Source: Sulfitobacter sp. THAF37 (GTDB lineage Bacteria; Pseudomonadota; Alphaproteobacteria; Rhodobacterales; Rhodobacteraceae). Taken from it: a DNA stretch of 64,000 nt. Numbering within the stretch: the stretch's first letter is position 1; each line of letters starts with the position of its first letter. Below are positions 12,235-31,714 of the stretch, in pieces. A model generated the notes under the pieces. That model saw only the letters and a program-made list of their open reading frames with translations, was not told where the DNA came from and did no database searches. Made by a program: the position numbers and the translations under genes. Location: positions 124,001 through 188,000 of the forward strand of contig NZ_CP045372.1 in NCBI RefSeq assembly GCF_009363555.1, given 5' to 3'.

Positions 12235-12365
12235 GAGCTTTTGAACAACCTTTTCGTAAATCAGCCATTTTCCGGAAATCGAATCCAGAATTCCGGCAAT
12301 TCACCGCGAAGATAGACAGGAAAAACCCCGAAGACCATGCTAACCTGACCTTTCAGGAGGATACC
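12235..12365. promoter_or_regulatory. Divergent promoter/operator region between lrp-type regulator and indolepyruvate oxidoreductase
   Basis: The interval is clearly more AT-rich than its surroundings. It contains the palindrome TTTCCGGAAA at 12269-12278. A second half-site, TTCCGG at 12291-12296, forms an inverted repeat with CCGGAA at 12272-12277 across 13 bases. Such spaced AT-flanked repeats fit a multi-site Lrp binding region. The right end carries an AGGAGG ribosome site for the oxidoreductase gene. Confidence 0.4.
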
Positions 12366-15300: not shown

Positions 15301-15764
15301 AATCGCTGTTCAAGCTGATGGCCTACAAGGACGAATACGAGGTCGCCCGCCTGCACAGCCAGACCGGCTTTGCCGACCGCATCGCCGAGGAATTCGAAGG
15401 CGACTACAAGGTCAAATACCACCTTGCCCCGCCGATGTGGCCCACCGGCCATGACACCCGCGACCGCCCGTTCAAGAAAACCTTCGGGCCCTGGATGGGC
15501 GCGGCCTTTGGCGTTCTGGCGCGCCTGAAGGGCCTGCGCGGCAGCTGGGCGGATGTGTTTTCCTACGGGGCCGACAGGCGGATGGAGGTGGCGCTGATCG
15601 GCTGGTACGAGGACCTGCTGCACCGGGTGGCCCGCAGTGCGCTGCCCGAAGAGGACAAGCTCGCCCTGCTCGCCGCGCCGATGGACATCCGGGGCTATGG
15701 CCCGGTGAAGGAAAAGGCGGCTGAAAAGGTCCGCGCCGAGGTTGAGGCAGGTCTGGCGGCGTAG
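12366..15764 (+). CDS. Indolepyruvate:ferredoxin oxidoreductase, single-chain form
   Basis: A 1132-residue cytoplasmic TPP- and iron-sulfur-dependent enzyme that decarboxylates aryl-pyruvates (from Trp, Phe, Tyr) to aryl-acetyl-CoA, passing electrons to ferredoxin. The N-terminal two-thirds is the TPP-binding alpha-like part, with a CSGCPHN cysteine motif near residue 433. A ferredoxin-like cluster follows near 634-648 (CEGCNDCSLESNC). The C-terminal part from about residue 718 is the gamma domain (VTGVGGTGVVTVGALIS). A strong AGGAGG site precedes the ATG. Archaeal enzymes are split into IorA and IorB; this fused form is typical of aerobic proteobacteria. The divergent Lrp gene is its likely regulator. 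Confidence 0.93.
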   Translation: MTKQDQTFPTYKLDDRYALPRGRVFMTGTQALVRIMLDQARRDRAAGLNTAGFVSGYRGSPLGGLDQEMWRNKPRLDEGRIRFLPAVNEDLGATAVLGAQQAHLDPHAEVEGVFSMWYGKGPGVDRSGDALKHGNAYGSAPKGGVLVVAGDDHGCVSSSMPHQSDVAFMSWFMPTLNPASVAEYQTFGEYGFALSRFSGTWVGFKAISEAVESGASIDLAHDRDFVQPDYTAPQGGLHVRLGDLPSPLIETRLHDKLQAVEAFVEANPIDRRIYDLPDAPFGIVTTGKGHLDLMEALRLLGLTEDRCRALGIDIYKVGMVWPLARRDALAFVRSKREVLVIEEKRGIIESQFKEAFYDWPGSKPKRMVGKHDENLEELVPWTGELSPLKLVPILAARLHAFFPDEGLQDKAHALTDTPPTLLNVPGATRTPYFCSGCPHNTSTKLPEGSTANSGIGCHVMAFWMDRDTAGFAQMGGEGVPWIATSMFNGGKHVFQNLGEGTWYHSGSLAIRQAVAAKTNITYKVLYNDAVAMTGGQPVDGPVSVNAIAQSARAEGVDRIAVVSDMPEKFIRSDFPSGTSFDHRRDLDTVQRELREIPGVTVLIYEQMCATEKRRKRKRGTLEDPPKFVMINDLVCEGCNDCSLESNCLSVEPKKTEFGTKRQINLSTCNKDYSCLNGFCPSFVTIEGATRRRKSGAGFDVAEMAAALPAPDLPRLDAPYDLLVTGVGGTGVVTVGALISMAAHLEGKGASVLDFTGFAQKFGTVLGYVRLANRPDDVHQVRIEQGSADAVIGCDMVVSSAPKASAHYRKGTRIVLNRAEMPTGDLVLNRDAHLAMDTREAVIADVVGADNLAAFDANAMAERLMGDAVFANVMMLGFAWQKGLVPVSLPALHQAIELNGVAPDRNKDAFAYGRVMAAAPDKLELPRAAEPDDTVQGLIDRRMSFLTDYQNAGYARRYADTLARFAEAGASDDMQRAAAKSLFKLMAYKDEYEVARLHSQTGFADRIAEEFEGDYKVKYHLAPPMWPTGHDTRDRPFKKTFGPWMGAAFGVLARLKGLRGSWADVFSYGADRRMEVALIGWYEDLLHRVARSALPEEDKLALLAAPMDIRGYGPVKEKAAEKVRAEVEAGLAA

Positions 15765-16283: not shown

Positions 16284-17720
16284 TCAGGCCAGGCCGCGCA
16301 GCAGTTCATACGCGGCGCGATACCGTTCGTGCCCGTCGGCCAGAGCCGCGCCCAGGTCCGCGTCCGGTGCGACCGTCCGGTCGATCGGCGGCTTGGTCGC
16401 ACTCTCGGCGCCGGTCCCGGTCGCCGCCATCTGACCCAGCCGGGCCGCCCCCAGCGCCGCGCCGAAATCGCCCGCCCGTGGCACCTCCAGCGGAAAGCCC
16501 AGCGTGCTGGCCAGCATCGACAGCCAGTGGTCCGACCGCGCCCCGCCGCCCATCGCCAGCGCGCTTTCGATCCGCGTGCCGGTGGCGGCCAGCGCACGGT
16601 TGCAATCGGCAAAGGCATAGCTGACGCCCTGCAGCACCGCCCGCGCCGCCGCCCGGGCATCGGTCGCATGATCCAGGTGCAGGAACTGGCCACGGATCGC
16701 CGCATCGTTATGCGGCGTCCGCTCTCCGCCGAGGTAGGGCAGGAACAGGGTCCGGCCCGGCGGTTCGACCCGCCCCAGATCGCGCGTCAGATCGGCCGCC
16801 GATTGACCGGTCAGCCGCGACAGCCACTCCAACGCGTCGGTGGCCGCCAGGATCACGCCCATCTGGTGCCAGGTGTCCGGCACGGCATGGCAAAAGCTGT
16901 GCACCGCAGTTTCAGGGTCAGGCCGGTAGCCGTTCGTGGCGGCAAAGAGCACCCCCGACGTGCCCAGCGACAGGAACGCGGTGCCGTCCTGCACCACCCC
17001 GGCCCCGATGGCCGTCGCCGCATTGTCGCCCGCGCCCCCCGCGACCACGGCCCGCGGCAGGCCCAGCAGTGTCGCGAGGTCCGCGCGCAAACGCCCCGAG
17101 GGCGCGGCGCCTTCGACCAGTGCCGGCATCTGGTCACGGCTCAGGTTGCAATCGGCCAGCAGTTCGTCCGACCAGTCCCGCGCGCCGGTATTCAGCCAGG
17201 CGGTCCCGGCGGCATCGGACATGTCCGACACATGTTCACCCGTCAGGAACAGACGCAGGTAGTCCTTGGGCAGCAGCACCTTCGCTATCCTGTCAAACAC
17301 CTCGGGCTCGTTTTCCCGGACCCAAGCGACCTTGGGCGCGGTAAAGCCGGGAAAGACGATGTTGCCGGTGATGTCGCGGAACCGGGCCTTGGCGTCCATC
17401 GCGGCGGCCTGCGCATGGCTGCGGGTGTCGTTCCACAACATGCAGGGCCGCAGCGGCGCGTCGTCGCCGCCGATCAGCGTGGCCCCGTGCATATGCCCCG
17501 ACAGGCCGATCCCGGTGACACCGGAACAATCGTGCGTTGCCGCCAGCGCCCCCAGCGCCTTGACCGCCGCGTCGCACCAGCTTTGCGGGTCCTGCTCTGA
17601 CCAGCCGTCCGCGGGGCGCTGCACGCTCAGCGCGACCGCCTGCTCCGCCAGCACCTCATGCGCGTCGTCAATCAGGATCGCCTTCAGCGAGGAGGTGCCA
17701 AGGTCCAGACCTATGTACAT
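16284..17720 (-). CDS. xylB: Xylulokinase
   Basis: A 478-residue FGGY-family kinase that phosphorylates D-xylulose to xylulose-5-phosphate, close in length to E. coli XylB (484). The N-terminal phosphate-1 motif is YIGLDLGTSSLKAILID, the substrate-site segment is GLSGHMHG, and the catalytic aspartate is in GAGDNAATAIGAG. The ATG at 17720 overlaps the stop of the upstream ATPase gene by one base (TGATG). The frame continues upstream but that part overlaps xylG and lacks kinase features. It sits fourth in a five-gene operon after the sugar ABC transporter. No xylose isomerase gene is in the window. Confidence 0.9.
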   Translation of the reverse strand: MYIGLDLGTSSLKAILIDDAHEVLAEQAVALSVQRPADGWSEQDPQSWCDAAVKALGALAATHDCSGVTGIGLSGHMHGATLIGGDDAPLRPCMLWNDTRSHAQAAAMDAKARFRDITGNIVFPGFTAPKVAWVRENEPEVFDRIAKVLLPKDYLRLFLTGEHVSDMSDAAGTAWLNTGARDWSDELLADCNLSRDQMPALVEGAAPSGRLRADLATLLGLPRAVVAGGAGDNAATAIGAGVVQDGTAFLSLGTSGVLFAATNGYRPDPETAVHSFCHAVPDTWHQMGVILAATDALEWLSRLTGQSAADLTRDLGRVEPPGRTLFLPYLGGERTPHNDAAIRGQFLHLDHATDARAAARAVLQGVSYAFADCNRALAATGTRIESALAMGGGARSDHWLSMLASTLGFPLEVPRAGDFGAALGAARLGQMAATGTGAESATKPPIDRTVAPDADLGAALADGHERYRAAYELLRGLA

Positions 17721-18469
17721 CAGGCCGCCTCCCTCGGGTTCTTGCCCAGTATGATCATCGACAGGATGTCGTCCTCCGTCACGTCCTCCACCCGTTCCGT
17801 GCCGACCATCTGACCGTTCTTCATCACGGCCACGCGGTCGCACAGATCCATCATCTCGCGGGTATCGTGGCTGATCAGGAAGATGCCCAGACCCTGTTTC
17901 TTGAGCTCCTGAATCAGATCGGCCACCATCGCGGTCTCATGCACCCCCAGCGCCGCCGTGGGTTCGTCCATGATCAGGATCTTCGCGTTGAAATAGACCG
18001 CACGGGCAATCGCGACCGACTGGCGCTGCCCGCCGGACAGGGCCGACACCGGCTCTTTCAGCTTTTTGAAATTGGGGTTGAGCCGCGCCATGATCCTGCG
18101 CGTCTCCGCCTCCATCCGGTCGTCATCGACAAAGCCCAGAGGGGTGGTCAACTCACGCCCCAGAAACAGATTGCTCGCCGCATCGAGATTGTCGGCCAGC
18201 GCCAGCGTCTGGTAGATCGTCTCGATGTTGTAGTCGCGGGCATCGCGGGGCGACTGGATCGTGGCACGTTCACCCTCGATCCAGATCTCGCCCGAATCCA
18301 TCCGGTAGGCGCCCGACAGCATCTTGATCAGCGTCGACTTTCCGGCCCCGTTATGGCCCAACAGGCCCACGACCTCACCCGCGTTGAGCGTGATGCTGAC
18401 GTTGTCGACCGCCTGCACCCCGCCAAAGGCGATGGAGACGTTCTTCATTTCGACCAAAGGCGATGTCAT
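17720..18469 (-). CDS. xylG: Sugar ABC transporter ATP-binding protein (XylG type, single domain)
   Basis: A 249-residue ATPase that powers sugar import. Walker A is GHNGAGKST near residue 38, the signature is [15 protein letters not shown] near 143, and Walker B is [13 protein letters not shown]. coli XylG has two fused ATPase domains (about 510 residues). The alphaproteobacterial form, as here, has one and must work as a homodimer. It begins directly after the xylH stop and overlaps xylB by one base. Confidence 0.88.
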
Positions 18470-19771
18470 CTACTTGGCCCCCATACGTTTTCTATACAGA
18501 ATGTCGATAAAGACCGCAAAGACCAGCACCGCCCCCACCACGATGTTCTGCAGCGGCGCATCGACGCCGACCATCGCCATACCCGATTGCAGCGATTGCA
18601 TGATCAGCGCACCCAGTATCGCGCCATAGATCGTGCCGATGCCCCCCGACAGCGCGGTGCCGCCAATGACAGCCGCCGCGATCACCCGCAGTTCGTCCAG
18701 AGTGCCGAGATCGTTGGAATGGTTCGCCAGCCGGGCCGAGGCGACGATGGCGGAAATCGCGCAAAGCGCGCCGATCAGGGCAAAGATCTTGACCGTCAGC
18801 AGCCGCGTGTTGATGCCCGACAGCTCCGCCGCGTCGGGGTTGCCGCCGGTGGCAAAGATGTAGCGCCCCAGCCGCGTCCGCCGCGCGATCACCGTCATCA
18901 CGATGGCAATCGCCAGCAGCAGCAGGACGGAAATCGGCAGACCGTAGACGGCCGTGCACCCTTCCGCCTCTGCGCAGCCGTACTTGGCGGGGTTGCGGGC
19001 CACCACCCGCTCGGGCACCTCGTAGGCGGTCAGGATTGCGATGAACCCGCCGATGGCCAGCGCGGCGATCACCGCCAGCGCGACTTCGGCCCAGAGCGGC
19101 TTGACCGGAAAGTCATGCGCCACCTTGACCCGCCGCGCGTTGAATATCAGCGCAACCGTGGCCAGGATTGCCACGATACCGATGCCCCAGCTCAACGGGC
19201 CGCCCAGGGTGCCGTTGATGCCGCCGAAAACCATGAACGTCTGGTCCAGCGGACCGATGGTCTGACCCGCGGTCATGTACCAGCCGACGTTGCGCCAGAC
19301 CAGGAAACCGCCCAGCGTGACGATAAAGGCGGGAATGGCCAGGTAGCCGACCATCCAGCCGTTGAAGGCCCCGATCACGGCGCCCAGCACGATCCCCCCC
19401 GCAATGGCGATCCAGGGAATGGCCCAATGCCCTATCTCAAGGCCCAGTCCCGGCAGCCACCGCACCTGCAGCATCGCCATCAGCGCCGAACAGGCCGCCA
19501 GCACCGCGCCCACCGACAGGTCGATGTGCCGGGTGACGATGACAAAGACCATCCCGGTCGCCATGATAGCGACCGAAGCGGTCTGGATCGTCAGGTTGAA
19601 AATGTTGCGCGGCGTCAGGAACCGGCCATCGGTCAGGATGTTGAAGACCAGCGCAACCAGCACGAAGGCACCGATCATCCCCAAGAGCCGGGTGTCGATC
19701 TCAAGCTGGTTGAGGAAACTGCGCTTCGGCGCCTTCTGGCTTGGCCGCGTATCTGTGGTGGTGTCGGTCAT
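18470..19771 (-). CDS. xylH: Sugar ABC transporter permease (XylH type)
   Basis: A 433-residue inner-membrane permease of the ribose/xylose (BPD_transp_2) class, with about ten hydrophobic segments starting near residue 32. The conserved cytoplasmic coupling segment NTRLLTVKIFALIGALCA and the glycine-rich GGTALSGGIGTIYGA are present. A large loop around residues 255-290 contains the sequence EVPERVVARNP, as in other XylH proteins. It follows xylF after a 140-base gap that contains a strong stem-loop and directly abuts xylG. Confidence 0.88.
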   Translation of the reverse strand: MTDTTTDTRPSQKAPKRSFLNQLEIDTRLLGMIGAFVLVALVFNILTDGRFLTPRNIFNLTIQTASVAIMATGMVFVIVTRHIDLSVGAVLAACSALMAMLQVRWLPGLGLEIGHWAIPWIAIAGGIVLGAVIGAFNGWMVGYLAIPAFIVTLGGFLVWRNVGWYMTAGQTIGPLDQTFMVFGGINGTLGGPLSWGIGIVAILATVALIFNARRVKVAHDFPVKPLWAEVALAVIAALAIGGFIAILTAYEVPERVVARNPAKYGCAEAEGCTAVYGLPISVLLLLAIAIVMTVIARRTRLGRYIFATGGNPDAAELSGINTRLLTVKIFALIGALCAISAIVASARLANHSNDLGTLDELRVIAAAVIGGTALSGGIGTIYGAILGALIMQSLQSGMAMVGVDAPLQNIVVGAVLVFAVFIDILYRKRMGAK

Positions 19772-19875
19772 GTATCAGCCCCTCGCATGTGGCTCGGGCG
19801 GCCCCGGGGGGACGGCGTGGCGCTCTGCGGTTGATGGGAATTGGCGTCAGCCCGCACGGCGCGCGGGCGGCGGCG

Positions 19876-19903
19876 AGAGGGGGCGACTGGCGCCGCCCCC
19901 TCT
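19876..19903 (-). other. Stem-loop in the xylF-xylH intergenic region
   Basis: AGAGGGGGCG and CGCCCCCTCT form a perfect 10-bp stem with an eight-base loop, nine bases after the xylF stop codon on the coding strand. There is no T tract, so it is unlikely to terminate fully. Stem-loops in this position after a binding-protein gene are known to protect the 3' end of the upstream message and allow more binding protein than permease. That role here is inferred. Confidence 0.6.
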
Positions 19904-19911
19904 GTGCACGA

Positions 19912-20943
19912 TCAGTTGCAGGGGGCCGGACCGTCGGTCACGCCCTGGCACAGCGCGTCCTGGCTGATCCAGCCTGCGTCGGTGACGACCGTGAGATTGT
20001 CGGCGGTCACTGGCACGGGGGCCAGGAACTTGGCCGTCAGCGTGGTGCCGCCGGGCGAGGTCCATTCCTCGGCGCCGTCGATGGCCGACATGTCGGTGCC
20101 ACCCGCCAGCGCCACCGCGATTTCACCCGCGGCCTTGCCAAGCTCGCGCGCGTCCTTCCAGACGGATACGGTCTGCGTGCCCTTGGCGACGCGGTTCAGC
20201 GCGGCGTGGTCGCCATCCTGACCTGACACCGGGATGCCTTCCATGCCCTGCGCGGTCAATGCCGCGACAACACCACCGGCGGTGCCGTCGTTGGAGGCGA
20301 CGACCGCATCGACGTTGTTGTCGTTGGCGGTCAGGATCTGCTCCATGTTGCGCTGCGCGTTGGCAGGCAGCCAGCCGTCGGTGTAGGCCTCGTCGACGAT
20401 GGTGATCTCGCCCGCGTCGATCGCCTCTTGCAGGACTTCCTGCTGACCGCCGCGCAGGAAATCCGCGTTCGGATCGGTGGGCGAGCCCTTGATCATCACG
20501 TAGTTGCCGGTCGGCTGGGCCTCCAGCACCGCGCGGGCCTGCATCCGGCCCACTTCGACGTTGTCGAAGGTCAGATAGAAGGCGCGGTCGTCTTCGATCA
20601 GGCGGTCATAGCCGACAACCGGAATGCCCTCGTTCGCCGCGGCATTGATGGCCGGGCCGATGGCGGCGCTGTCCTGCGCCAGGATGATCAGCGCGTCGAC
20701 CCCCTGCGCGATCAGGCTTTCCACATCCGACAGCTGCTTGGCCGAGGACGACTGCGCATCGGCGGAAACATAGGTCGCCCCGGCGGCGTCCAGAGCTTCC
20801 TTGATCGCCGCCTCGTCGGTCTTCCAGCGTTCTTCCTGAAAGTTCGACCAGCTCACGCCGACCGTCATGCTGTGACTATCCGCCCAGGCGAATGAGGTGA
20901 ATCCTGCGACCGCAACGCCAGCCGCGAGCATTTTCTTGAACAT
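19912..20943 (-). CDS. xylF: Sugar ABC transporter substrate-binding protein (XylF type)
   Basis: A 343-residue periplasmic binding protein of the ribose/xylose class (Peripla_BP_4). The signal peptide covers about residues 1-21 (MFKKMLAAGVAVAGF then AWADS). The mature part begins MTVGVSWSNFQEERWK, as in XylF proteins, and contains the conserved GYDRLIEDDRAFYLTFDN and VVASNDGTAGG segments. A GGGAGG ribosome site precedes the ATG. It is the first gene of the operon, divergent from the ROK regulator. D-xylose is the likely ligand, though the lack of xylA nearby leaves other pentoses or polyols open. Confidence 0.9.
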   Translation of the reverse strand: MFKKMLAAGVAVAGFTSFAWADSHSMTVGVSWSNFQEERWKTDEAAIKEALDAAGATYVSADAQSSSAKQLSDVESLIAQGVDALIILAQDSAAIGPAINAAANEGIPVVGYDRLIEDDRAFYLTFDNVEVGRMQARAVLEAQPTGNYVMIKGSPTDPNADFLRGGQQEVLQEAIDAGEITIVDEAYTDGWLPANAQRNMEQILTANDNNVDAVVASNDGTAGGVVAALTAQGMEGIPVSGQDGDHAALNRVAKGTQTVSVWKDARELGKAAGEIAVALAGGTDMSAIDGAEEWTSPGGTTLTAKFLAPVPVTADNLTVVTDAGWISQDALCQGVTDGPAPCN

Positions 20944-21016
20944 CGGTTCCTCCCTTATGATTCCCCCTGTCCCGCAGGAGGCGAGTCAGATGACCCTGAG
21001 CTTAACGTCGCCCAAT

Positions 21017-21037
21017 TTATTTCAGCTGTCAAAATAA
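21017..21037. promoter_or_regulatory. Candidate ROK-regulator operator
   Basis: TTATTT and AAATAA form an inverted repeat separated by nine bases, in the AT-rich part of the 208-base gap between xylF and the ROK gene. ROK repressors such as NagC and Mlc bind AT-flanked palindromes of similar length. Its place between the divergent genes would let one site control both. Confidence 0.45.
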
Positions 21038-21151
21038 TACTTCTCTGATCGCCCGGTTTTTCACAGATTTTCCTTCCCAAACGCCGCGACCTTCGCCAGA
21101 ATTGCGCCATCCCGTCAAAAATCGGCGGCTTTATGTTTAGAGATTGAACTT

Positions 21152-22417
21152 ATGGATGGTCACAGCGCCGACCTCGCACATACCCCGCTGACGGGATGCG
21201 GTCCTCAACTGACCAGAGGGCGGGCAGCCAACGTGCCGCTGCGACTCCAGATTTTCGATTATGTGCGCGCAAACGGGTCCGCCGCAAGGGCCGACATCAC
21301 CCGCGCGCTCGACATCAGCGCAGGGTCGGCCACCACCCTCACCGCGGACCTGATCGCCGCGGGCCTGCTGCGCGAGGTGACAGGCGTCGCCCGCGAATCC
21401 GGCCGCGGCCGCCCGCCGGTGGCACTTCGGGTCGTGCCCGAAGCGGCCCATGTCATCGGGATCAAACTGTCCTACAACCGCCATACCGCCGTCCTGACGG
21501 ATTTTGCCGGCACCATGCTGGCCGACGCCGCGCTGCCCACGCAGCACACCACCCGCAGCATGCCGCAGTTGCTGGACGAAATCGCCGCACTGATCGACGG
21601 CGTGCTGGCCAACGGCGGCAAGTCGCGCGCCGACATCCGCGCCGTCGGCATCGGGATGCCCGGCATCATCGAATTCGATACCGGCACCATCGCCTGGTCC
21701 GCCCTGCTGGAGGACCGCGACCAGAACCTGCGCAACGCCTTCGCGGCGCATTTCGACATGCCGGTCTATATCGACAATGACGCCAACATGCTGACGCTGG
21801 CCGAACTGTGGTTCGGCGAGGGGCGGCAGAAAAGCGATTTCGCCGTCGTCACCATCGAGAACGGCGTCGGCATGGGGTTGGTCCTGAACAACAGGCTTTA
21901 CCGCGGTGCGCGCGGCATGGGGCTGGAACTGGGCCATACCAAGGTGCAGCTCGACGGGGCGCTCTGCCGCTGCGGGCAGCGCGGCTGCCTCGAAGCTTAC
22001 CTGGCCGATTACGCCCTTGCCCGCGAGGCGGCCACCGCGCTGGGACAGCCCCCCGATACCCCGCAAAGCAGCCAGATGCTGCTGGAAACCCTGTTCCGGC
22101 GGGCCAAGTCCGGCAACCGCGCCGCCCGCACCATTTTCGAACGCGCGGGGCGCTACCTGTCGGTCGGCCTGTCCAATGTGGTGCAGCTTTTCGATCCGGA
22201 ACTGATCATCCTGTCCGGCGAGCGGATGCAATACGACTACCTCTACGCCTCGGAGGTGATGACCGAAATGCAGGAGCTGACCCTGTCGGAGGGCCGCGCG
22301 CCCTGCGAAGTGGCGATCCACGCCTGGGGGGACCTGGTCTGGGCGCGGGGTGCCACCGCACTGGCGCTGTCGGCGTTGACCGATACCCTGCTCGGCGGTG
22401 AAGGAGACGCGGCGTGA
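21152..22417 (+). CDS. ROK family transcriptional regulator (probable xylose-operon repressor)
   Basis: A 421-residue regulator. Residues about 28-80 form a winged helix-turn-helix (LRLQIFDYVRANGSAARA, then ALDISAGSATTLTADLIAAG). The rest is the ROK sugar-kinase-like domain, with the zinc motif CRCGQRGCLE near 272-281 and the preceding LELGHTKV. The kinase ATP-site glycines are degenerate, as usual for regulators rather than kinases. It is divergent from xylF and so probably represses the sugar operon until the sugar binds. Its stop overlaps the GTG start of the CRTAC1 gene (GTGA). Confidence 0.88.
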   Translation: MDGHSADLAHTPLTGCGPQLTRGRAANVPLRLQIFDYVRANGSAARADITRALDISAGSATTLTADLIAAGLLREVTGVARESGRGRPPVALRVVPEAAHVIGIKLSYNRHTAVLTDFAGTMLADAALPTQHTTRSMPQLLDEIAALIDGVLANGGKSRADIRAVGIGMPGIIEFDTGTIAWSALLEDRDQNLRNAFAAHFDMPVYIDNDANMLTLAELWFGEGRQKSDFAVVTIENGVGMGLVLNNRLYRGARGMGLELGHTKVQLDGALCRCGQRGCLEAYLADYALAREAATALGQPPDTPQSSQMLLETLFRRAKSGNRAARTIFERAGRYLSVGLSNVVQLFDPELIILSGERMQYDYLYASEVMTEMQELTLSEGRAPCEVAIHAWGDLVWARGATALALSALTDTLLGGEGDAA

Positions 22418-23898
22418 AATGGCGCGCGGCCCTGCTCGCCTGCCTGATCGGCACCGCCGCACAGGCCGACCCGCAGTTCGAAGACCGCTCGACCGCCCTG
22501 CCCGACCACCGCTACACCGGCGGATGGGAGCATTTCGTCGGCGGGGGCGTCGCGGTCTTTGACTGCGACGGCGACAGCCTGCCCGACATCTTCGCCGCCG
22601 GGGGTGCCTCTTCTGCCACGCTGATCCGCAATCGGGGCGGTTTCCGGTTCAGTCCGGCGTCGCTTGCGCCCCTCACAGGTGTCACCGGCGCTTACCCCAT
22701 CGACATGGACGGCGACGGCATCACCGACCTCTTCGTGCTGCGGGCGGGCGCGAACCTTGCGCTGCGCGGGGGGCCGGACTGCACCTTTACCGATGCCACC
22801 GAGGGCTGGGGCCTGCCGACGGACACCCGGTGGAGCACCGCCTTCACCGCCTGGTGGGAAGGCGATGACAGCCGCCCCACGCTGGCCATCGGCAACTACG
22901 TGGACCGCACCGATCCCGACGGCCCCTTCGAGGCCTGCGATGAAAACACGATCCTGCGCCCGGTCACGGGCGGATACGACGCCGCGCCGCTCACGCCGGG
23001 CTTCTGCCCCCTGTCCATGCTGGCGGCACGGGATGCGCGGGGGCGGCCCGCGCTGCGGCTTTCCAACGACCGGCACTATTATGTCACCGGCGGCCACGAA
23101 CAGATGTGGGACATCGCCGAACGCCGCTTTCTCGGGCCCGAAGACGGCTGGCAGAACGTCGCGCTCTGGGGCATGGGCATCGCCTCGCGCGATATCACCG
23201 GGGATGGCGCGGACGAGGTGATGCTGACCTCGATGGGCGACCAGCTGATGCAGATCGCACAGCCGGACGGCACCTACGCCGCCGCCCCTTACAGCATCGG
23301 CACCTATGCCCAACGGCCCCATGTGGGCGACGACGGGCGCCCCTCCACCGGCTGGCATGCCGAGTTCGGCGACATCGACAACGACGGCCGCGCCGACCTG
23401 TTCATCGCGAAGGGCAACGTGGACCAGATGCCCGGCCTCGCCACCCGCGACCCGAACAACCTGCTGATGCAGCGGCCCGACGGCACCTTCGTCGAACGGG
23501 CGGCCAAGGCTGGCGTCGCCACCACCGACAGGTCGCGCGGGGCCGCCCTGGCGGATTTCGACGGCGACGGGCGGCTGGACCTTCTGGTGCTGAACCGCCG
23601 CGCGCCGCTTGAGATCTATCGCAACGTGACCGAGGGTACCGGCAACTGGATCGGCCTGCGCCTGCAGCAGCAGACCGGCAACCGCGACGCCATCGGGGCC
23701 GTGGTCACGGTCGAAACGCCCCGCGGGCGCCAATCGGTACAGCAGGTGATCGGCGGGGGGCATGCGGGCGGTCAGCTCCTGCCCCGGCATTTCGGTCTGG
23801 GGGCGGCACCCCGCGCCGACGTCTCCGTGCGCTGGCCGGATGGCGTGACCACGAGGCACCGTCTGGATGCGAACCGCATCCACCGCATCGCGCGCTGA
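22414..23898 (+). CDS. CRTAC1 family FG-GAP/VCBS repeat protein
   Basis: A 494-residue secreted protein with a signal peptide (about residues 1-18, ending AAQAD). Several calcium-binding FG-GAP-like blades have the pattern DxDGDGxxDL: FDCDGDSLPDIF, DMDGDGITDLF, DITGDGADEVM, DIDNDGRADLF and DFDGDGRLDLL. The C-terminus carries an ASPIC/UnbV-type domain (GNWIGLRLQ, then RWPDGVTTRHRLD). These make an integrin-alpha-like beta-propeller. The start is GTG, overlapping the ROK stop by four bases, with an AAGGAGA site six bases upstream. It faces a di-heme peroxidase gene end to end. Its function is unknown. Confidence 0.8.
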   Translation: MKWRAALLACLIGTAAQADPQFEDRSTALPDHRYTGGWEHFVGGGVAVFDCDGDSLPDIFAAGGASSATLIRNRGGFRFSPASLAPLTGVTGAYPIDMDGDGITDLFVLRAGANLALRGGPDCTFTDATEGWGLPTDTRWSTAFTAWWEGDDSRPTLAIGNYVDRTDPDGPFEACDENTILRPVTGGYDAAPLTPGFCPLSMLAARDARGRPALRLSNDRHYYVTGGHEQMWDIAERRFLGPEDGWQNVALWGMGIASRDITGDGADEVMLTSMGDQLMQIAQPDGTYAAAPYSIGTYAQRPHVGDDGRPSTGWHAEFGDIDNDGRADLFIAKGNVDQMPGLATRDPNNLLMQRPDGTFVERAAKAGVATTDRSRGAALADFDGDGRLDLLVLNRRAPLEIYRNVTEGTGNWIGLRLQQQTGNRDAIGAVVTVETPRGRQSVQQVIGGGHAGGQLLPRHFGLGAAPRADVSVRWPDGVTTRHRLDANRIHRIAR

Positions 23899-23961
23899 CA
23901 CAAAGGCACCCGGTGCCGCCCGAAACCGGGGCTGCCAGACGTTCCGCCCCGACCGGATGGC

Positions 23962-25305
23962 TCAGCGCGGAACCGGCAAGCCGCTGGGCACCGTTTCCGG
24001 CACCCCCAGCCGACCCTCTGCCGCGACCGGGTCGGTCAGGGTATTCAGGAAGGCGACGATCTGCCCCACCTCCTCGGGCGACAGACGCACCGGTGGCACC
24101 CTGACCGCGCCGAGGATCGCCGCGACCTGCGCGGGGTCCCGCATCACCGCGAAATCCTCTGCCTTTGGAACCGTCAGCACCGCCTGATCCTCGGTATAGG
24201 CGGCCATGCCCGCCGCCGGATCCGCATGGGCGGCGACAAAGGCCGCAAGATCGCGGTGTCCGCCCGCATGACCATAGGGCGCCGTCAGCGCCACGTTGCG
24301 CAGGGACGGCGTGCGGAACGCGTAAAGGTCGTCGGGATCGCCCGTCACCCGAAACCGCCCCTCGTCGCGGTGATGATCCTCAAAGCTTGCCGATTTGCCC
24401 GGCCCGATCTGGGGCGTCCCCATGGCGTGAAAATCGTGATCGGTCAGGAACGGTCCGCTGTGACAGCCCGCGCAGCCCGCCGCGCCGTAGAACAGCCTCA
24501 GCCCGGCCTGCGCCGCGCCCTCCAGCGCCGCCTCCCCCCGCAGCACCGCGTCGAAAGGGGCGGTGTCCGATCGCCACTCATGCGCCATGAACACGGCGAT
24601 GGCATTGGAAATGTCGGTAAAGGCGATGTCTTCGGGACCCGCGACATGCGGATAAACGGCCCGGAACCGCGCGGCATATTCGGGCACCGCCGCCACCCGG
24701 CGCGCGATCAGGTCCCATGCGCCGCCCGGCCCTGTGATGACCCCCTGCCGCACCGCCCGTGCCACGTCGTTCTCGCGGTGAGAACCCGCCATTTCGTCCC
24801 GGCTGAGCACCGGGAACATGGTCTGTGCCGACAGGACAGAGGCAAAGCCGCCGACCATATCCGCATCCATCGGCGTCCGCAGCCCCCCTGGCCGGTCGGC
24901 GTCCACCTCCAGCCTGCCATCGTGGAACATGACCGAGAACTCATGCGCCCCAAGGTTGAACAGCCCCGGCGCGTTGCGGGGGATACGTTCTTCCGGCGGA
25001 TTGTCGGGGTCCGCCACCCGGTCGGGACCCAGACCCAGACCGCCATCGCCCAGCGCCAAAGATACCCCGTCGCCGGTGCCGAAATCCGGATGATGACAGG
25101 TGGCGCAGGCCACGCTGCGGTTGCCCGACAGGATCGGATCGTAGAACAGCACCTGCCCCAGCCGCGCCTCTTCGAGGTCGACGGGCCGGTAATCGGCGTC
25201 GCCGACCGGGTCGGGCAGCGTCTGGGCAGGCGCAGCTGCGGGCCAGCACAGCGCCCCCAACAGCACCCATCGCAATGGAAAGGACCGGATCATGCCCCGC
25301 AGCAT
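23962..25305 (-). CDS. Di-heme cytochrome c peroxidase / MauG family protein
   Basis: A 447-residue periplasmic protein with a signal peptide ending near APAQ. The N-terminal heme motif is CATCHHP near residue 66 and the C-terminal one is CAGCH near 277. Typical flanking features are the ACATCHHPDFGTGDG stretch and the downstream GTPQIGPGK. The family includes CcpA peroxidases, which reduce hydrogen peroxide, and MauG-like enzymes, which oxidise protein residues. The start could also be the ATG at 25293. The gene is convergent with the CRTAC1 gene. The spacing between hemes is longer than in CcpA, which leans towards the MauG/MbnH side. Confidence 0.82.
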   Translation of the reverse strand: MLRGMIRSFPLRWVLLGALCWPAAAPAQTLPDPVGDADYRPVDLEEARLGQVLFYDPILSGNRSVACATCHHPDFGTGDGVSLALGDGGLGLGPDRVADPDNPPEERIPRNAPGLFNLGAHEFSVMFHDGRLEVDADRPGGLRTPMDADMVGGFASVLSAQTMFPVLSRDEMAGSHRENDVARAVRQGVITGPGGAWDLIARRVAAVPEYAARFRAVYPHVAGPEDIAFTDISNAIAVFMAHEWRSDTAPFDAVLRGEAALEGAAQAGLRLFYGAAGCAGCHSGPFLTDHDFHAMGTPQIGPGKSASFEDHHRDEGRFRVTGDPDDLYAFRTPSLRNVALTAPYGHAGGHRDLAAFVAAHADPAAGMAAYTEDQAVLTVPKAEDFAVMRDPAQVAAILGAVRVPPVRLSPEEVGQIVAFLNTLTDPVAAEGRLGVPETVPSGLPVPR

Positions 25306-25332: not shown

Positions 25333-26814
25333 TCAGCCGCCGGTCTTGGCGTCGAACTGGCGTTTATGCTCATCCGCCCAGGCGTCCAGCGTATAGCGGA
25401 ACACGGCCTTGCGCAGTTCCGCCATACGGGCGCGGCGTTCCTCCTCGGGCATGTCCAGCGCCGCCAGGATCGCATTGTCCATCGACCGATGCGAGAACGG
25501 ATTGGTGATCACCGCCGAATGCAGTTCCACCGCCGCACCGGCGAATTCAGACAGCACCAGCGCCCCGTCGCCATCGCTGCGCGCCGCGACGAATTCCTTG
25601 CAGACCAGGTTCATCCCGTCCACCAGGGGCGTGATCCAGGCCACATCCGCCGCCATGTAATAGGACAGCAGCTGCTCGAACGGAATCGCCCGCGAGATCA
25701 GCGCGATGGGCTGCCACTCCAGCGTGCCAAAACGGCCGTTGATCCGGCCCGCCGTCTCTTCGATCCCGGTCTGGGTGCGGGCATAGGCCGACATGTTGCG
25801 GTCCGCACTGACCGAGACATGCATCAGCCGCACCTTGCCGCGCAGCTTCGGATTGTCGTCCAGCACCCGCTCGAAGCTTTCCAGCTGGTCCACGCCACCC
25901 TTGGTATAATCCGTCCGCCCGACCGACAGTATCAGCTTCTCGTCGCCCATCTCCTTGCGAATGTCATCCGCCTTGGCGATCAGCTCGGGTTCTTTCGACC
26001 GGCCCGAGATATACTCGGCGTTGACCCCGACAGAGGCCGAGCTGATGGCGATCCGGCGCCCGTCCTGAACGATCGCGGTCGGCACCCGCCGTTCGCTCAG
26101 CGCCGTGCCGTCCGACACCAGATCGTGGTTGACCGGCCCGGTGGTGATGTCGTCCAGGTCGAACAGCGAATTGGCCACCGCGACGAAGTTGGACGCGTAG
26201 CGCGGGATATGAAAGCCGATGATGTCGCATTTCAGCAGGCTGTCCACGATCTCGCGCCGCCACGGCAGCACGTTGAACATGTCCGCCGCCGGGAAGGGCG
26301 TGTGGTGGAAAAAGCTGATCGTGACATCCGAGCGCAGCTGCCGCAGGTAGCCCGGCACCAGCCACAGGTTGTAGTCATGCACCCAGACCCGCGCGCCATG
26401 CCCCGCCTCGCGCGCCGCCGCTTCGGCAAAAGCCCAGTTCACCTCGCGAAAGGTGGGCCAGTCGACCGGATCGTAATTGAACTTTTCCTTGAAGCTGTGA
26501 AGGATCGGCCAGAACGCCTCTTTCGAAGAGACGTGGTAAAAGCTTTTGACCTGCGCCTCGCTCAACGGCAGGCGGGACACGTTGTAGGTGCCGTGATTGT
26601 CGTTGATCTCGACCACCTTGTCGAACTCGGGGTTGGCCGGATCATCGGCCAGTTTCCAGGCAACCCAGGTGGCATGTTCGGCGGTCCCGAAAAAGCTCTT
26701 GAGCGTGGGCACAATGCCATTCGGGCTCTTGTTCTCGCGCAGGACCGTCTTGCCGTCCTTCTCGATTTCCTCGTAGGGCTGGCGGTGGTACACGATGACC
26801 AGATCAGATGACAT
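25333..26814 (-). CDS. ggpS: Glucosylglycerol-phosphate synthase-like GT20 glycosyltransferase
   Basis: A 493-residue cytoplasmic retaining glycosyltransferase of family GT20 (OtsA/GgpS). Motifs include HDYN near residue 145, SVGRTDYTKGG near 295 with the phosphate-binding Arg and Lys, and ITPLVDGMNLVCKEF near 393. Three features favour GgpS over trehalose-phosphate synthase: the N-terminal SPNGIVPTLKSFF loop replaces OtsA's GGLxxG loop, the AWITPL wording, and the neighbours. GgpS joins glucose from ADP- or UDP-glucose to glycerol-3-phosphate. It overlaps the upstream phosphatase gene by 11 bases, and a gpsA gene precedes that. Trehalose-6-phosphate synthase (otsA) is the main alternative. 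Confidence 0.75.
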   Translation of the reverse strand: MSSDLVIVYHRQPYEEIEKDGKTVLRENKSPNGIVPTLKSFFGTAEHATWVAWKLADDPANPEFDKVVEINDNHGTYNVSRLPLSEAQVKSFYHVSSKEAFWPILHSFKEKFNYDPVDWPTFREVNWAFAEAAAREAGHGARVWVHDYNLWLVPGYLRQLRSDVTISFFHHTPFPAADMFNVLPWRREIVDSLLKCDIIGFHIPRYASNFVAVANSLFDLDDITTGPVNHDLVSDGTALSERRVPTAIVQDGRRIAISSASVGVNAEYISGRSKEPELIAKADDIRKEMGDEKLILSVGRTDYTKGGVDQLESFERVLDDNPKLRGKVRLMHVSVSADRNMSAYARTQTGIEETAGRINGRFGTLEWQPIALISRAIPFEQLLSYYMAADVAWITPLVDGMNLVCKEFVAARSDGDGALVLSEFAGAAVELHSAVITNPFSHRSMDNAILAALDMPEEERRARMAELRKAVFRYTLDAWADEHKRQFDAKTGG

Positions 26815-27568
26815 CTGTCAGTATTTCCTTTGCATCGGGATGAAGATCGAACGCGATCATGGCTTCGACGATACCGGCAGCGCCGATGGCGCTGGCGCGG
26901 TGGATACGCGGCAGGTCGGGCAGCGCCGCGATCAGCTTGCCTTCGGACCCGCCCACAGCCACGGCGGGTGTGCCCGCCACCAGCATCGACAGATCGTTCA
27001 GCGTGTCACCCGCCGCCAGCACCCGCGACGTGTCGACCCCCAGATGGTCCAGCAGCCGCAGCAACGACGGCCCCTTGCTGACCCCCCGCGGCAGCACGTC
27101 CAGAAACCGGTTGTCCGATATCAGCACGTCATGGCCCATGCCCTCGATCACCTCGGCGGCGCGTGGGTCATAGGCATCCGGCTCATAGTCAAAGCTGACC
27201 CGGTAGCGAAACGCGGTTTTCTGTTCCACCAGCCCGGGAAAGGGCTTCAGCGCCGCCCGCACCCGATCCGCGCTGTCGTTCCACCGGGCCGCGATCTCGC
27301 GCTCAAGCGGCTCGATCGGAGTGATCCCCTTGTCGGGATGCACCTGTGCGATGCTGGTGCCGACGTCGCAGACCGCGTATTCAGGCCAGGGCAGTTCCTT
27401 TGACGCGCAGGTATCAAAGATGAAATCGGGGTCGCGTCCGCTGACAAAGATCAACCCGACGGTGTCGCGGTTGTCCTCGATCCAGCGATAGAGCGCACGG
27501 CGGTCCGCCTCCGTTCCGCCCAGAAACGTGCCGTCAAGGTCGGTCGCCAGAACAAAAGGCTTGTCCAT
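26804..27568 (-). CDS. HAD-superfamily type IIB phosphatase, probable glucosylglycerol-phosphate phosphatase
   Basis: A 254-residue phosphatase. Motif I is DLDGTFLGG (nucleophile and acid/base Asp at 10 and 12), motif II is VSGRD, motif III is the Lys of GVSKGPSLLRLL, and motif IV is GDTLNDLSML. The insert between motifs II and III is the C2B cap found in sucrose- and mannosylglycerate-phosphate phosphatases. It lies between gpsA (one-base TGATG overlap) and the GT20 synthase (11-base overlap), so dephosphorylation of the synthase product is the likely job. It is not like the cyanobacterial GgpP/StpA phosphatase. It resembles the N-terminal domain of fused GgpPS enzymes in general plan. Confidence 0.72.
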   Translation of the reverse strand: MDKPFVLATDLDGTFLGGTEADRRALYRWIEDNRDTVGLIFVSGRDPDFIFDTCASKELPWPEYAVCDVGTSIAQVHPDKGITPIEPLEREIAARWNDSADRVRAALKPFPGLVEQKTAFRYRVSFDYEPDAYDPRAAEVIEGMGHDVLISDNRFLDVLPRGVSKGPSLLRLLDHLGVDTSRVLAAGDTLNDLSMLVAGTPAVAVGGSEGKLIAALPDLPRIHRASAIGAAGIVEAMIAFDLHPDAKEILTDVI

Positions 27569-28698
27569 CAGGCCACCCCGCCGTCGAGCCGGGTCATGGA
27601 TTTCTGCGCCGGGTTGTTCAGCGTCAGGTCCATGGCCCGGGGTTCGGCCGAAATCGGTTGCGTCCAGAGATCGGCAAAAGCCTCGTTCAGGTCGCGCCCT
27701 TCGTGCAGGATGGCAAACACCGTCTCGCAGATCGGCATCGCAACCTTCACCCGCTTCGCCAGATCGATGACCGACCGCGCGTTCGCCTCGCCTTCCACGA
27801 CCACCGGCGCCCCGTCAAAGCACTGGTCGCGCGCAATCCCCTGCCCCAGTTGCACGCCCAGCGACATGTTGCGGGAGGTCTGGCTGGAACAGGTCAGCGT
27901 CAGATCGCCGGTTCCCGCCAGCCCCGTCACCGTCTCGCGGCGTCCGCCCAGCGCCTCGGCCAGGACCTTCATCTCGTCCAGACCCCGCGTGATCAGGGCC
28001 GCGCGGGTGTTTTCGGCAAAGCCCGCGCCGGTCATCATGCCACAGCCGATGGCAACCACATTCTTGACCGCGCCGCCGATTTCGACCCCGACGAGGTCGT
28101 CTGAAATATAGGTCTTGAAGAAACCCGTGCTCATCGACAGGGCCAGCCGCGCGGCGGGGCTGTGCGACGGCTCCAGCCGGTCGCGGTGGCTGAATTCGAA
28201 AGCCACGGTCGCCGCCGTGGGATGGCCCAGCGCCGTCTCGCGGGCGAAGGTCGGACCGGAAATCGTGCCCACGGGCACATGCGGCAGCTCTTCGGCCACC
28301 ACCTGCGACATCAGATAGCCGGTGCGCTGCTCGATCCCCTTGGTACAGATCGCCACCGGCGTCCCGTCCTTGACCAGCCCCGAGATGCGCGCGGCCATGC
28401 TGCGCACCGCGCCCGATGGCACCACCAGCAGGACAGCGTCCGCCCCGGTCAGCGCCGCCTCAATGTCGTCCGTTGCCTCCAGCGTCGGCGGCAGGTCGAT
28501 GCCGGGCAGATACTTGGCGTTCACATGCCGCGCGTTGATGCCCGCCACCGTCTCGGCGTCGCGGGCAAAAAGCCGCACGTCGCGCCCCGCCTTCGCGGCA
28601 ACGCTTGCCAGCGCCGTCCCCCAGGCACCGCCGCCAATGACAGCAAGTCGCGCATAGGGTTGTTCCTGTGTCGGCAACACCTTGATGTCGGCTGTCAT
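27568..28698 (-). CDS. gpsA: Glycerol-3-phosphate dehydrogenase [NAD(P)+], operon-borne long form
   Basis: A 376-residue enzyme that reduces dihydroxyacetone phosphate to sn-glycerol-3-phosphate. The Rossmann motif is VIGGGAWGTALA at about 20-31, the conserved CTKGIE is near 118, and the catalytic lysine is in IGGAVKNVVAIGCG. The family is usually near 320-335 residues. The extra length here is an N-terminal tail (MTADIKVLPTQEQPY), a small mid insert and about 22 residues after PISAE. A GAGGAG site precedes the ATG. Being first in an operon with a sugar-phosphate phosphatase and a GT20 enzyme suggests it feeds an osmolyte pathway rather than phospholipid synthesis. A housekeeping copy probably exists elsewhere. 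Confidence 0.88.
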   Translation of the reverse strand: MTADIKVLPTQEQPYARLAVIGGGAWGTALASVAAKAGRDVRLFARDAETVAGINARHVNAKYLPGIDLPPTLEATDDIEAALTGADAVLLVVPSGAVRSMAARISGLVKDGTPVAICTKGIEQRTGYLMSQVVAEELPHVPVGTISGPTFARETALGHPTAATVAFEFSHRDRLEPSHSPAARLALSMSTGFFKTYISDDLVGVEIGGAVKNVVAIGCGMMTGAGFAENTRAALITRGLDEMKVLAEALGGRRETVTGLAGTGDLTLTCSSQTSRNMSLGVQLGQGIARDQCFDGAPVVVEGEANARSVIDLAKRVKVAMPICETVFAILHEGRDLNEAFADLWTQPISAEPRAMDLTLNNPAQKSMTRLDGGVA

Positions 28699-29094
28699 TC
28701 CTGCACTCCTCTTTTGGTCGCCTGCTGCCCGTAGGTCGGGGTTTTGCTGAATTAAGACCTAAGGGGATGACTTGTCAGTTCAATGAAAGAGCCGGTTATG
28801 CCCCCCAAAACATGGGAAAACCTTTCGAATTCTGCCTAAGAATTGAGCATGTGGCAATATATCGGGCAATCGCGTTGCGGGCTGACCGTCGGCGGCAAAG
28901 CCACGCGGGCACCGCGTAAGAATTTGATAAGGATCGAAAAATTCCCCACCACTCCGGTATTTTCGCGCAGAGTCAGGCCAGCGGGTGGTTCGATCGGCAT
29001 GACTGCCCCTGGCAGAACAAACCGCCACTTTTTTTGACTTTCTGCAGGTGCAGCCTTACCTCTTTCAGGTGGTGTAAACAGGAGTGGACGAGCA
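28699..29094. other. Divergent intergenic region between gpsA and galU
   Basis: No convincing gene in 396 bases, and the composition is more AT-rich than the flanking genes. It must hold two outward promoters. On the minus strand CTGACA (28773-28778) and TAATTC (28749-28754) are 18 bases apart and could be the -35 and -10 boxes of the gpsA operon. On the plus strand TTGACT near 29034 could be the -35 box for galU. These assignments are tentative. If the operon makes an osmolyte, salt-responsive control would act here. Confidence 0.4.
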
Positions 29095-29988
29095 ATGAAA
29101 AAGACAGTGCGCACAGCAATTTTCCCGGTGGCCGGCATGGGGACCCGGTTCCTTCCCGCGACCAAGGCGGTCCCGAAAGAGCTGCTGCCGGTGCTCGACA
29201 CCCCCCTGATCCAATATGTGATCGACGAGGCGCGCGACGCCGGGATCGAGCGGATGATCTTCGTCAATCACCCGTCGAAATCCGCCATCGAACACTACGT
29301 CCTCGATGACACCGATCTCTGCGCCTCGCTTTGTGAAAAAGGCAAGGATGCCCTGGCCCGCGAGCTGAAAAACGCCGCGCTGGACACGGAAACCCACGAC
29401 ATCGTCTTCGTCCATCAACACGAACCACTGGGCCTTGGCCACGCCATCCTCTGCGCGGCCGAGCACGCCCTGCCGGGTGCCGTGGCGGTGCTGCTGCCCG
29501 ACGATCTGATCCTCAGCGGCACCGGGTGCCTCAGCCAGATGATCGAAGCCTACGAGGCCGGGCCGGTGGATCACATGCTGGCCACGATGGAGGTCCCGCG
29601 CGAGACGGTTTCCAGCTACGGCGTCCTGTCGATCTCCCACCACGACACCACGCTGGCCTATTGCGACGGGCTGGTGGAAAAACCGGAGGTAGAGGCGGCC
29701 CCTTCCACCCAGGCGGTGGTCGGGCGCTATATCCTCCACGGCGACATCTTCGACACCCTGCGCGGCCAGAAGCCCGGCGCGGGCGGCGAGATCCAGCTGA
29801 CCGACGCCATCGCGGCGGACATCGGCGAAAAGACCGTCGCGGGCTTCCGGTTCATCGGCAAACGATTCGACTGTGGCTCCAAGGACGGTATGCTGAGCGC
29901 GCAATTGTTCCTGGCCCAGCAGGACGCCCGCTTTGACCACGTCATCGGCGACTTTCTCAGCGCCAATCAACAGATGAACGTCGCCTGA
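29095..29988 (+). CDS. galU: UTP--glucose-1-phosphate uridylyltransferase
   Basis: A 297-residue cytoplasmic nucleotidyltransferase that makes UDP-glucose from UTP and glucose-1-phosphate. The nucleotide-binding motif GTRFLPATKAVPKELLPV is at about residues 15-32, and the C-terminal segment GKRFDCGSKDGML is characteristic of GalU. It is divergent from the gpsA-phosphatase-GT20 operon and followed after 34 bases by a GH13 glucosidase gene. The context suggests that it supplies UDP-glucose to the GT20 enzyme, though GalU also serves polysaccharide synthesis generally. Confidence 0.92.
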   Translation: MKKTVRTAIFPVAGMGTRFLPATKAVPKELLPVLDTPLIQYVIDEARDAGIERMIFVNHPSKSAIEHYVLDDTDLCASLCEKGKDALARELKNAALDTETHDIVFVHQHEPLGLGHAILCAAEHALPGAVAVLLPDDLILSGTGCLSQMIEAYEAGPVDHMLATMEVPRETVSSYGVLSISHHDTTLAYCDGLVEKPEVEAAPSTQAVVGRYILHGDIFDTLRGQKPGAGGEIQLTDAIAADIGEKTVAGFRFIGKRFDCGSKDGMLSAQLFLAQQDARFDHVIGDFLSANQQMNVA

Positions 29989-30022: not shown

Positions 30023-31714
30023 ATGAAAGACATACCTTCCCCAGACCCCGACTGGTGGCGCGGCAGCGTCATCTACCAGATCTATCCGCGCAGCTTTCAG
30101 GACAGCAACGCGGACGGCATCGGCGATCTTCAGGGCATCGTTCAGCGCATCGACTATGTGGCCAGCCTCGGTGTCGATGCGATCTGGGTCTCGCCCTTCT
30201 ACCGGTCGCCGATGCAGGACTTCGGCTATGACGTCAGCGACTATTGCGACGTCGATCCGATCTTTGGCTCGCTGGCGGATTTCGACGACCTTGTCGCGGC
30301 GGCGCATGGCGCCGGCGTCAAGGTGATCATCGACCTGGTGCTGTCGCACACCTCGGATCAGCATGCGTGGTTCGCCAACAGCCGCGCCTCCCGCGAGGGT
30401 ACGCTGGCGGACTGGTACGTCTGGTCGGACCCAAAGCCAGACGGCACACCGCCCAACAACTGGCTGTCGATCTTCGGGGGCTCGGCCTGGCACTGGGACC
30501 CCCGGCGCGAACAATACTACCTGCACAACTTCCTTACTTCTCAGCCCGATCTGAACCTGCACAATCCACATGTGCAGTCCGCCCTGCTCGAAGTGATGCG
30601 CTTCTGGCTCGACCGCGGCGTCGATGGCTTCCGCTTCGACACCGTGAATTTCCTCTTTGCGGACAAGGACCTGCGCGACAATCCGGCCTTGGCAAAGGCA
30701 CAGCGCAACGAGATCCTGACGCCGTCGGTCAATCCCTACAACTACCAGGACCACGTCAATTCCAAGAACCGCCCCGAAACGCTGGACTTCATCAAAAGGG
30801 TGCGCGCGCTGCTGGACGAATACGGCGCCGTCACCTCGCTGGGCGAGATCGGCGATGCCGCCAAGGGGCTGGACCTGCTGGGCCAGTACACCCGCGGCAC
30901 CGACGGGCTGCACATGTGCTACGCCTTCGAGTTTCTGGCCGCAGAGCCGCTCAACGCCTCCCGCGTGGCGGAGGTGCTTTATACCATCAACCAGGTCGCC
31001 CGCGACGGCTGGCCCGCCTGGGCGTTCTCGAACCACGACGTGATGCGCCACTCCAGCCGCTGGCATCTGACCCCGGCGGCGCAACGCCTCTATGCGACGC
31101 TGTTGATGTGCCTGCCCGGCGCGGTCTGCCTCTATCAGGGCGAAGAGCTGGGCCTTGAGGAAGACGCGATCAGCTTTGAAGACCTGCAAGACCCCTACGG
31201 CCGCGAATTCTGGCCCGAATACAAGGGCCGCGACGGATGCCGGACCCCCATGGTCTGGGATCAGACCGAGGCCAACGCAGGCTTCAGCACCGGGGTCCCC
31301 TGGCTGCCGCTGAGCAACGAGAACCGGCACCGCGCCGTACACACCCAGGAGGCCGAACCGGGCGCGATCCTGCATCACTACCGCAATGCCATCGCGTTTC
31401 GCCGCAAACACCGGGCATTGCAGGTCGGGCGACAGGAAAACGTCTATGTTTTCGGCGACGTCCTGCACTTTCAGCGCGTGACGGAGGATGCGACCATCTT
31501 CTGCGCCTTCAACATGTCCGACACCCCGTCGATCCACAGCCTGCCCGCGGGCGAATGGAAAACCATCGGTCGCAAGATCGGCAGCGCCAGTCCTTCCCCC
31601 GACGGGCGGCTGCATCTGGGGCCCTGGCAGGTCTGCGTGGCCCGTAAACTGTCGGACGAGGCGGGGTCAGACCCCGCGCCGGACAAGGGCGACAGCACAG
31701 CCGACGGCCCGTAG
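30023..31714 (+). CDS. GH13 alpha-glucosidase (alpha-amylase family)
   Basis: A 563-residue family GH13 hydrolase without a signal peptide, so cytoplasmic. The TIM-barrel regions read DLVLSHTSDQH (region I), GFRFDTVNF near residue 205 (nucleophile Asp), LGEIGD near 273 (acid/base Glu) and FSNHDVMR near 335 (transition-state Asp). The DTVNFLFADKDLRDNP wording resembles marine alpha-glucosidases such as the Halomonas enzyme HaG, which acts on short alpha-glucosides and can glucosylate glycerol. It is in an operon with galU next to a predicted glucosylglycerol operon, so turnover of that solute, or of trehalose or maltose, is possible. An AAAGG site precedes the ATG. Confidence 0.82.
   Translation: MKDIPSPDPDWWRGSVIYQIYPRSFQDSNADGIGDLQGIVQRIDYVASLGVDAIWVSPFYRSPMQDFGYDVSDYCDVDPIFGSLADFDDLVAAAHGAGVKVIIDLVLSHTSDQHAWFANSRASREGTLADWYVWSDPKPDGTPPNNWLSIFGGSAWHWDPRREQYYLHNFLTSQPDLNLHNPHVQSALLEVMRFWLDRGVDGFRFDTVNFLFADKDLRDNPALAKAQRNEILTPSVNPYNYQDHVNSKNRPETLDFIKRVRALLDEYGAVTSLGEIGDAAKGLDLLGQYTRGTDGLHMCYAFEFLAAEPLNASRVAEVLYTINQVARDGWPAWAFSNHDVMRHSSRWHLTPAAQRLYATLLMCLPGAVCLYQGEELGLEEDAISFEDLQDPYGREFWPEYKGRDGCRTPMVWDQTEANAGFSTGVPWLPLSNENRHRAVHTQEAEPGAILHHYRNAIAFRRKHRALQVGRQENVYVFGDVLHFQRVTEDATIFCAFNMSDTPSIHSLPAGEWKTIGRKIGSASPSPDGRLHLGPWQVCVARKLSDEAGSDPAPDKGDSTADGP

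Follow-up and report, generated by a model that had tools for sequence, protein, structure and literature searches.

A three-gene cluster in Sulfitobacter sp. THAF37, in which gpsA is followed by a HAD phosphatase gene and a glycosyltransferase family 20 (GT20) gene, would form an operon for glucosylglycerol synthesis that brings its own precursor enzymes, a reading to which we give a probability of about 0.85. The cluster lies within a stretch of 64,000 nucleotides (C1:124001-188000, hereafter the window) of a 4.26 Mb genome with a completeness given as 99.35%, and adjoins a divergently oriented galU paralogue that the original prediction of this operon had not included. What the sequence shows directly is the order of the genes, the families and clades to which their products belong, and the absence of any detectable glgC, glgA or sucrose synthase gene. 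In the proposed pathway, GpsA would reduce dihydroxyacetone phosphate to glycerol-3-phosphate; the neighbouring GalU paralogue, together with the housekeeping GalU, would supply UDP-glucose; the GT20 protein, GgpS, would glucosylate glycerol-3-phosphate, most probably with UDP-glucose as the nucleotide-glucose donor; and the HAD phosphatase would strip the phosphate to yield glucosylglycerol, a compatible solute. The substrates, the product and the osmotic role would follow from the protein families and from the set of genes present. The elements concerned are as follows, in window coordinates.

25333..26814, minus strand: ggpS, GT20 glucosylglycerol-phosphate synthase (493 amino acids), named from TIGR02398, from trees and as the sole PF00982 match in the genome
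26804..27568, minus strand: HAD-IIB phosphatase of the S6PP family (254 amino acids), predicted glucosylglycerol-phosphate phosphatase, from PF05116, HAD motifs and its place upstream of ggpS in 80/80 loci
27568..28698, minus strand: gpsA paralogue (glycerol-3-phosphate dehydrogenase, 376 amino acids), from NF000942, a second gpsA elsewhere and a separate clade
28699..29094, no strand: divergent intergenic stretch of 396 bases between gpsA and galU, in which we infer that the operon promoter must lie
29095..29988, plus strand: divergent GalU paralogue (297 amino acids), likely to supply UDP-glucose, from TIGR01099 as best match, linkage and clade

The GT20 protein scored 644.1 bits on the glucosylglycerol-phosphate synthase model TIGR02398, above its equivalog cut-off of 569 and with residues 8-489 aligned to model positions 1-482 of 487, and 392.3 bits on the OtsA model TIGR02400, below the cut-off of 564.85. 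No other protein in the whole genome matched PF00982. Its nearest named relative, from Sulfitobacter alexandrii, is 95% identical, and its identity to OtsA-like proteins of relatives is about 27-32%. The loop predicted to replace the GGL loop of OtsA is present as SPNGIVPTLKSFF, matching SAGGL in Escherichia coli OtsA; the two were paired by eye, as the automatic alignment was gapped there. The acceptor site was compared across 102 rows (99 loci, the window and two fused proteins), among which L001 and L093 are the window gene again and some genomes occur twice. The position of one OtsA arginine, which we take to be a glucose-6-phosphate ligand, was occupied by asparagine in 85 of these rows, aspartate in 14, alanine in 3 and arginine in none, and there was no variation at the catalytic positions, HD and the DG and NL of donor motif DG.NL. 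A tree was built from the window GgpS with 18 selected members of the 99 locus proteins (19 GgpS rows in all), two fused proteins, and OtsA from E. coli and 14 loci (15 rows). In it the OtsA rows split from the GgpS and fused rows with 100/100 support; named cyanobacterial GgpS sequences were not among the rows. This placement outside OtsA, proposed as a check in the original prediction, agrees with the scores on the two models in supporting its claim that the GT20 protein is not a trehalose-6-phosphate synthase. Family, linkage to gpsA and the changed acceptor site together suggest glycerol-3-phosphate as the acceptor. The accompanying claim, that a standard annotation pipeline would label this gene otsA and overlook the pathway, is wrong, because TIGR02398 names the gene and NCBI records of close relatives already read glucosylglycerol-phosphate synthase or ggpS. 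Plasmids of Dinoroseobacter shibae and Falsirhodobacter algicola both carry an annotated ggpS with gpsA and the HAD gene just before it.

The phosphatase matched PF05116 (S6PP / HAD-IIB) with 138.3 bits and contains the HAD motifs DLDGT, SGR and GDTLND. In the family scans it reached the cut-off of no single-function phosphatase model, had no trehalose phosphatase family among its matches, and did not match PF09506, the different phosphatase family to which cyanobacterial GgpP presumably belongs. The window GpsA scored 371.2 bits on NF000942 (cut-off 257); one further gpsA lies elsewhere in the genome, which makes the window gene a genuine second copy. The 25 operon GpsA rows, which include two duplicates, and the 11 housekeeping rows, among which one long row (L146) was flagged, fell into separate clades with 100/100 support. 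All 11 housekeeping proteins stop at or next to an RPLKEE-like end, beyond which the 25 operon copies extend, so that both alignment and clade confirm the predicted paralogue with a long C-terminal tail. The gpsA beside ggpS was the only one found in five ggpS-positive genomes (G109, G132, G144, G149 and G158), and in two more (G063 and G098) the sole gpsA was located away from ggpS.

The open reading frames correspond to the three overlapping genes originally described. A single base is shared at the gpsA/HAD junction, where stop and start form TGATG, and the phosphatase gene, which comes first, overlaps the synthase gene by exactly 11 bases, ATGTCATCTGA, as had been claimed. We kept 80 loci from at least 570 confirmed candidates and counted neighbour genes by direct tblastn. 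The phosphatase stood upstream of the synthase on one strand in all 80, and of the 75 loci with 2.2 kb or more of upstream sequence, 66 had gpsA ahead of the pair, which makes the arrangement more than chance. A divergent galU was present in 31 of the 69 loci with at least 5.5 kb upstream. Phosphatase and synthase genes overlapped in 13/80 loci, by 11 bases in seven. In a phylum-wide draw, 12 of 398 genomes matched TIGR02398 at E 1e-120, all of them above the cut-off. Within Sulfitobacter ggpS has a patchy distribution: in the relatives set, the four genomes G000, G007, G053 and G057 were above the cut-off, one of which, G053, has a weaker GT20 match in addition to ggpS, and 13 other listed genomes of the genus had a weaker GT20 match only, nine of these grouping with OtsA in the tree. 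One could guess that one solute has been replaced by the other through gene exchange.

Fused GgpPS enzymes have been described in Stenotrophomonas, Pseudomonas, Azotobacter and Marinobacter (PMC10873239; this and the papers below are cited from excerpts of their text). The window shares with them both families, phosphatase and synthase, and their order, but has two genes with the 11-base overlap, plus gpsA and the linked galU. The phosphatase-synthase domain order was found in two fused proteins from our set, P0121 and P0122, and in five fused genes of other Pseudomonadota, in line with the order expected from GgpPS. In a second tree, a branch of 20 rows (100/100) comprised 18 split genes, including that of the window, together with P0121 and P0122, and the five fused genes fell outside it; no gpsA was seen beside these five within a fetched flank of only about 1.5 kb. 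The label of a split GgpPS-type operon can thus be kept in the sense of a split relative of fused GgpPS, but the window operon is not a simple split copy and belongs to a separate, mostly split branch. In both trees P0121 is paired with L083, a split gene (100/99 in the first, 92/99 in the second), and it is therefore probable that genes were fused or split on more than one occasion. Synechocystis has a GT20 synthase and a separate phosphatase, with the genes apart (PMC6753628). The window likewise combines a TIGR02398 GT20 synthase with a separate phosphatase, but in a single operon and with no glgC found, where the Synechocystis donor is ADP-glucose. Plasmid pDSHI02 of D. shibae has the identical three-gene order gpsA-HAD-ggpS, but the locus is plasmid-borne and shows no divergent galU in the stretch shown.

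The linked GalU had TIGR01099 as its best match at 275 bits, below the cut-off of 326.8, compared with 336.6 bits for the genome's other GalU; classed as a divergent paralogue only, it probably works like GalU. The same was seen in the four ggpS-positive genomes of the genus, where the linked GalU scored 270.6-275.1 bits, below the cut-off, and each genome had another GalU above it. Linked GalU sequences (the window and 31 of the 32 loci showing a linked galU, L068 being left out) formed a clade apart from 30 housekeeping GalU, one of which (L149) sits on a very long branch, with 100/100 support and a stem of 2.82 changes per column. The stretches GTRFLP, Q-x3-LGLGHA, LPDD and VEKP, which we take to be the functional motifs of GalU, are kept in the linked proteins, and none of the 12 columns separating linked from housekeeping GalU falls within them.

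The original prediction had left the choice between UDP- and ADP-glucose open. The best GlgC score in the genome was 30.9 bits against a cut-off of 424.9, and neither GlgA nor sucrose synthase was found there, which speaks against an ADP-glucose donor in this organism. Five NTP-transferase genes are present: the window GalU, the second GalU and three others that, read by eye, encode a mannose-1-phosphate guanylyltransferase, a MurU-like protein and GlmU; the two GalU proteins were the only ones of the five scanned against families. Nine of the 16 ggpS-positive genomes in the relatives set had no glgC match at E 1e-60, and five of those nine had a single GalU-family match at E 1e-40. Six of nine further ggpS-positive genomes were also without glgC, including all five with fused genes (one only 71% complete), bringing the total to 15 of 25 ggpS-positive Pseudomonadota genomes. 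In the five genomes with neither glgC nor a second GalU-family gene, UDP-glucose is left as the evident donor. The missing glgC, glgA and sucrose synthase and the GalU data narrow the question in favour of UDP-glucose, which we consider the likely donor for the window GgpS.

Several observations weigh against this interpretation of the operon and its donor. The gpsA gene is missing in 9 of the 75 loci, of which two (L008 and L077) keep galU and the other seven lack it, and 38 of the 69 loci have no divergent galU. Among the 16 ggpS-negative genomes searched, 4 also had extra GalU-family matches, of which one was partial. Moreover, glgC was present in 7/16 ggpS-positive genomes versus 38/177 other relatives and is thus not rarer with ggpS (Fisher p = 0.06), so that a link between ggpS and loss of glgC is not favoured; its absence in relatives hangs on the E 1e-60 search, and the glgC counts alone do not allow a clean donor inference. 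Finally, Synechocystis GgpS requires ADP-glucose and does not use UDP-glucose (PMC6004087). This specificity lends some weight to an alternative in which the window GgpS resembles the cyanobacterial enzyme in using ADP-glucose, and a change of specificity has let the linked GalU-like enzyme stand in for the missing GlgC as the source of ADP-glucose, as might be read from a GalU score of 275 under a cut-off of 326.8 and from the long stem of the linked GalU clade. We regard this as unlikely, given the five ggpS-positive genomes that have no glgC and no second GalU-family gene, and given that the 12 distinguishing columns spare all four conserved stretches.

Two further alternatives concern the product, and both appear less probable still. 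A G3P-using (glycerol-3-phosphate-using) GT20 enzyme might make another glycerol glycoside such as galactosylglycerol, for which there is a precedent in the TPS-like proteins of Pyropia that produce (iso)floridoside from UDP-galactose and glycerol-3-phosphate (PMC6642608); the curated family matched here is, however, a glucosyl enzyme, and the linked nucleotidyltransferase is GalU-like, and we consider this alternative very unlikely. The least credible of all is a trehalose pathway, with the GT20 protein acting as trehalose-6-phosphate synthase and the HAD protein as trehalose-6-phosphate phosphatase. The window does resemble the OtsA/OtsB pathway in pairing a GT20 synthase with a HAD phosphatase, and the shared family is reflected in the identity of about 27-32% to OtsA-like proteins, but its GT20 protein has another acceptor site, belongs to another clade (100/100), and lies below the OtsA and above the GgpS cut-off; the operon contains gpsA, and the phosphatase is of the S6PP family with no trehalose phosphatase family matched. 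We therefore rejected trehalose synthesis on the OtsA cut-off, the changed acceptor-site arginine and the separate OtsA clade.

With regard to control of the proposed glucosylglycerol operon, no EcfG-type site, which we assume to read GGAAC-N15-18-CGTT, was present in the 396-base gap between gpsA and galU of the window. Across 77 regions upstream of the operon, the window among them, EcfG-like sites occurred in seven, with 0.5 expected from shuffles and two on the reverse strand. These counts give a hint of EcfG general stress response control. On pDSHI02 (L120, locus 11998-15400), genes of the general stress response kind lie downstream of ggpS, encoding a sigma factor, a NepR-like anti-sigma factor, a response regulator and a histidine sensor kinase.

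One further gene lies on the far side of galU:

30023..31714, plus strand: GH13 alpha-glucosidase 3' of galU, an optional neighbour, from PF00128, with 3wy1 as best solved relative

The alpha-glucosidase 3wy1 is, as we understand it, a Halomonas enzyme able to glucosylate glycerol, and a relative of the window GH13 lies on the opposite side of ggpS in Pararhodobacter (L049). From this relationship and placement one may guess at a role in glucosylglycerol turnover. As a constant part of the operon the GH13 gene was rejected, being found in 5/69 loci plus L010, which has a shorter flank. Immediately downstream of ggpS (22414-25305), an FG-GAP/UnbV repeat protein adjoins a MauG-like di-haem peroxidase (CCP_MauG), and relatives of both occupy the same place in Sulfitobacter sp. 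EhC04 (L002). Further along, 16284-22417 looks by eye like a set of genes for xylose uptake, with a ROK-type regulator and a sugar kinase beside a permease, an ATPase and a periplasmic sugar-binding protein; the ROK protein is the one member scanned against families.

Glucosylglycerol is a solute of many cyanobacteria and of few or several heterotrophs (PMC10873239, PMC6753628), and in samples of Antarctic coastal seawater it has been named as one of the most abundant particulate metabolites (PMC10579395). The pathway is known; what would be the variant here is a split operon that has matching paralogues of GpsA and GalU and lacks an evident route to ADP-glucose, an arrangement that we did not find described in excerpts of the open PMC literature on glucosylglycerol, where the genome table of PMC7002103 contains one glucosylglycerol-phosphate synthase gene. 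We lean towards a view in which proteobacterial glucosylglycerol synthesis runs on UDP-glucose, uncoupled from glycogen metabolism, and in many Rhodobacterales forms one module with its own GpsA and GalU paralogues, both of them in clades separate from the housekeeping copies, which would let both precursors rise under salt stress without touching central metabolism. If true, production in hosts without ADP-glucose would benefit from a GgpS that uses UDP-glucose and comes with a matched precursor module, and marine Rhodobacterales and their kin, in which the operon recurs, would be a further group of glucosylglycerol producers.

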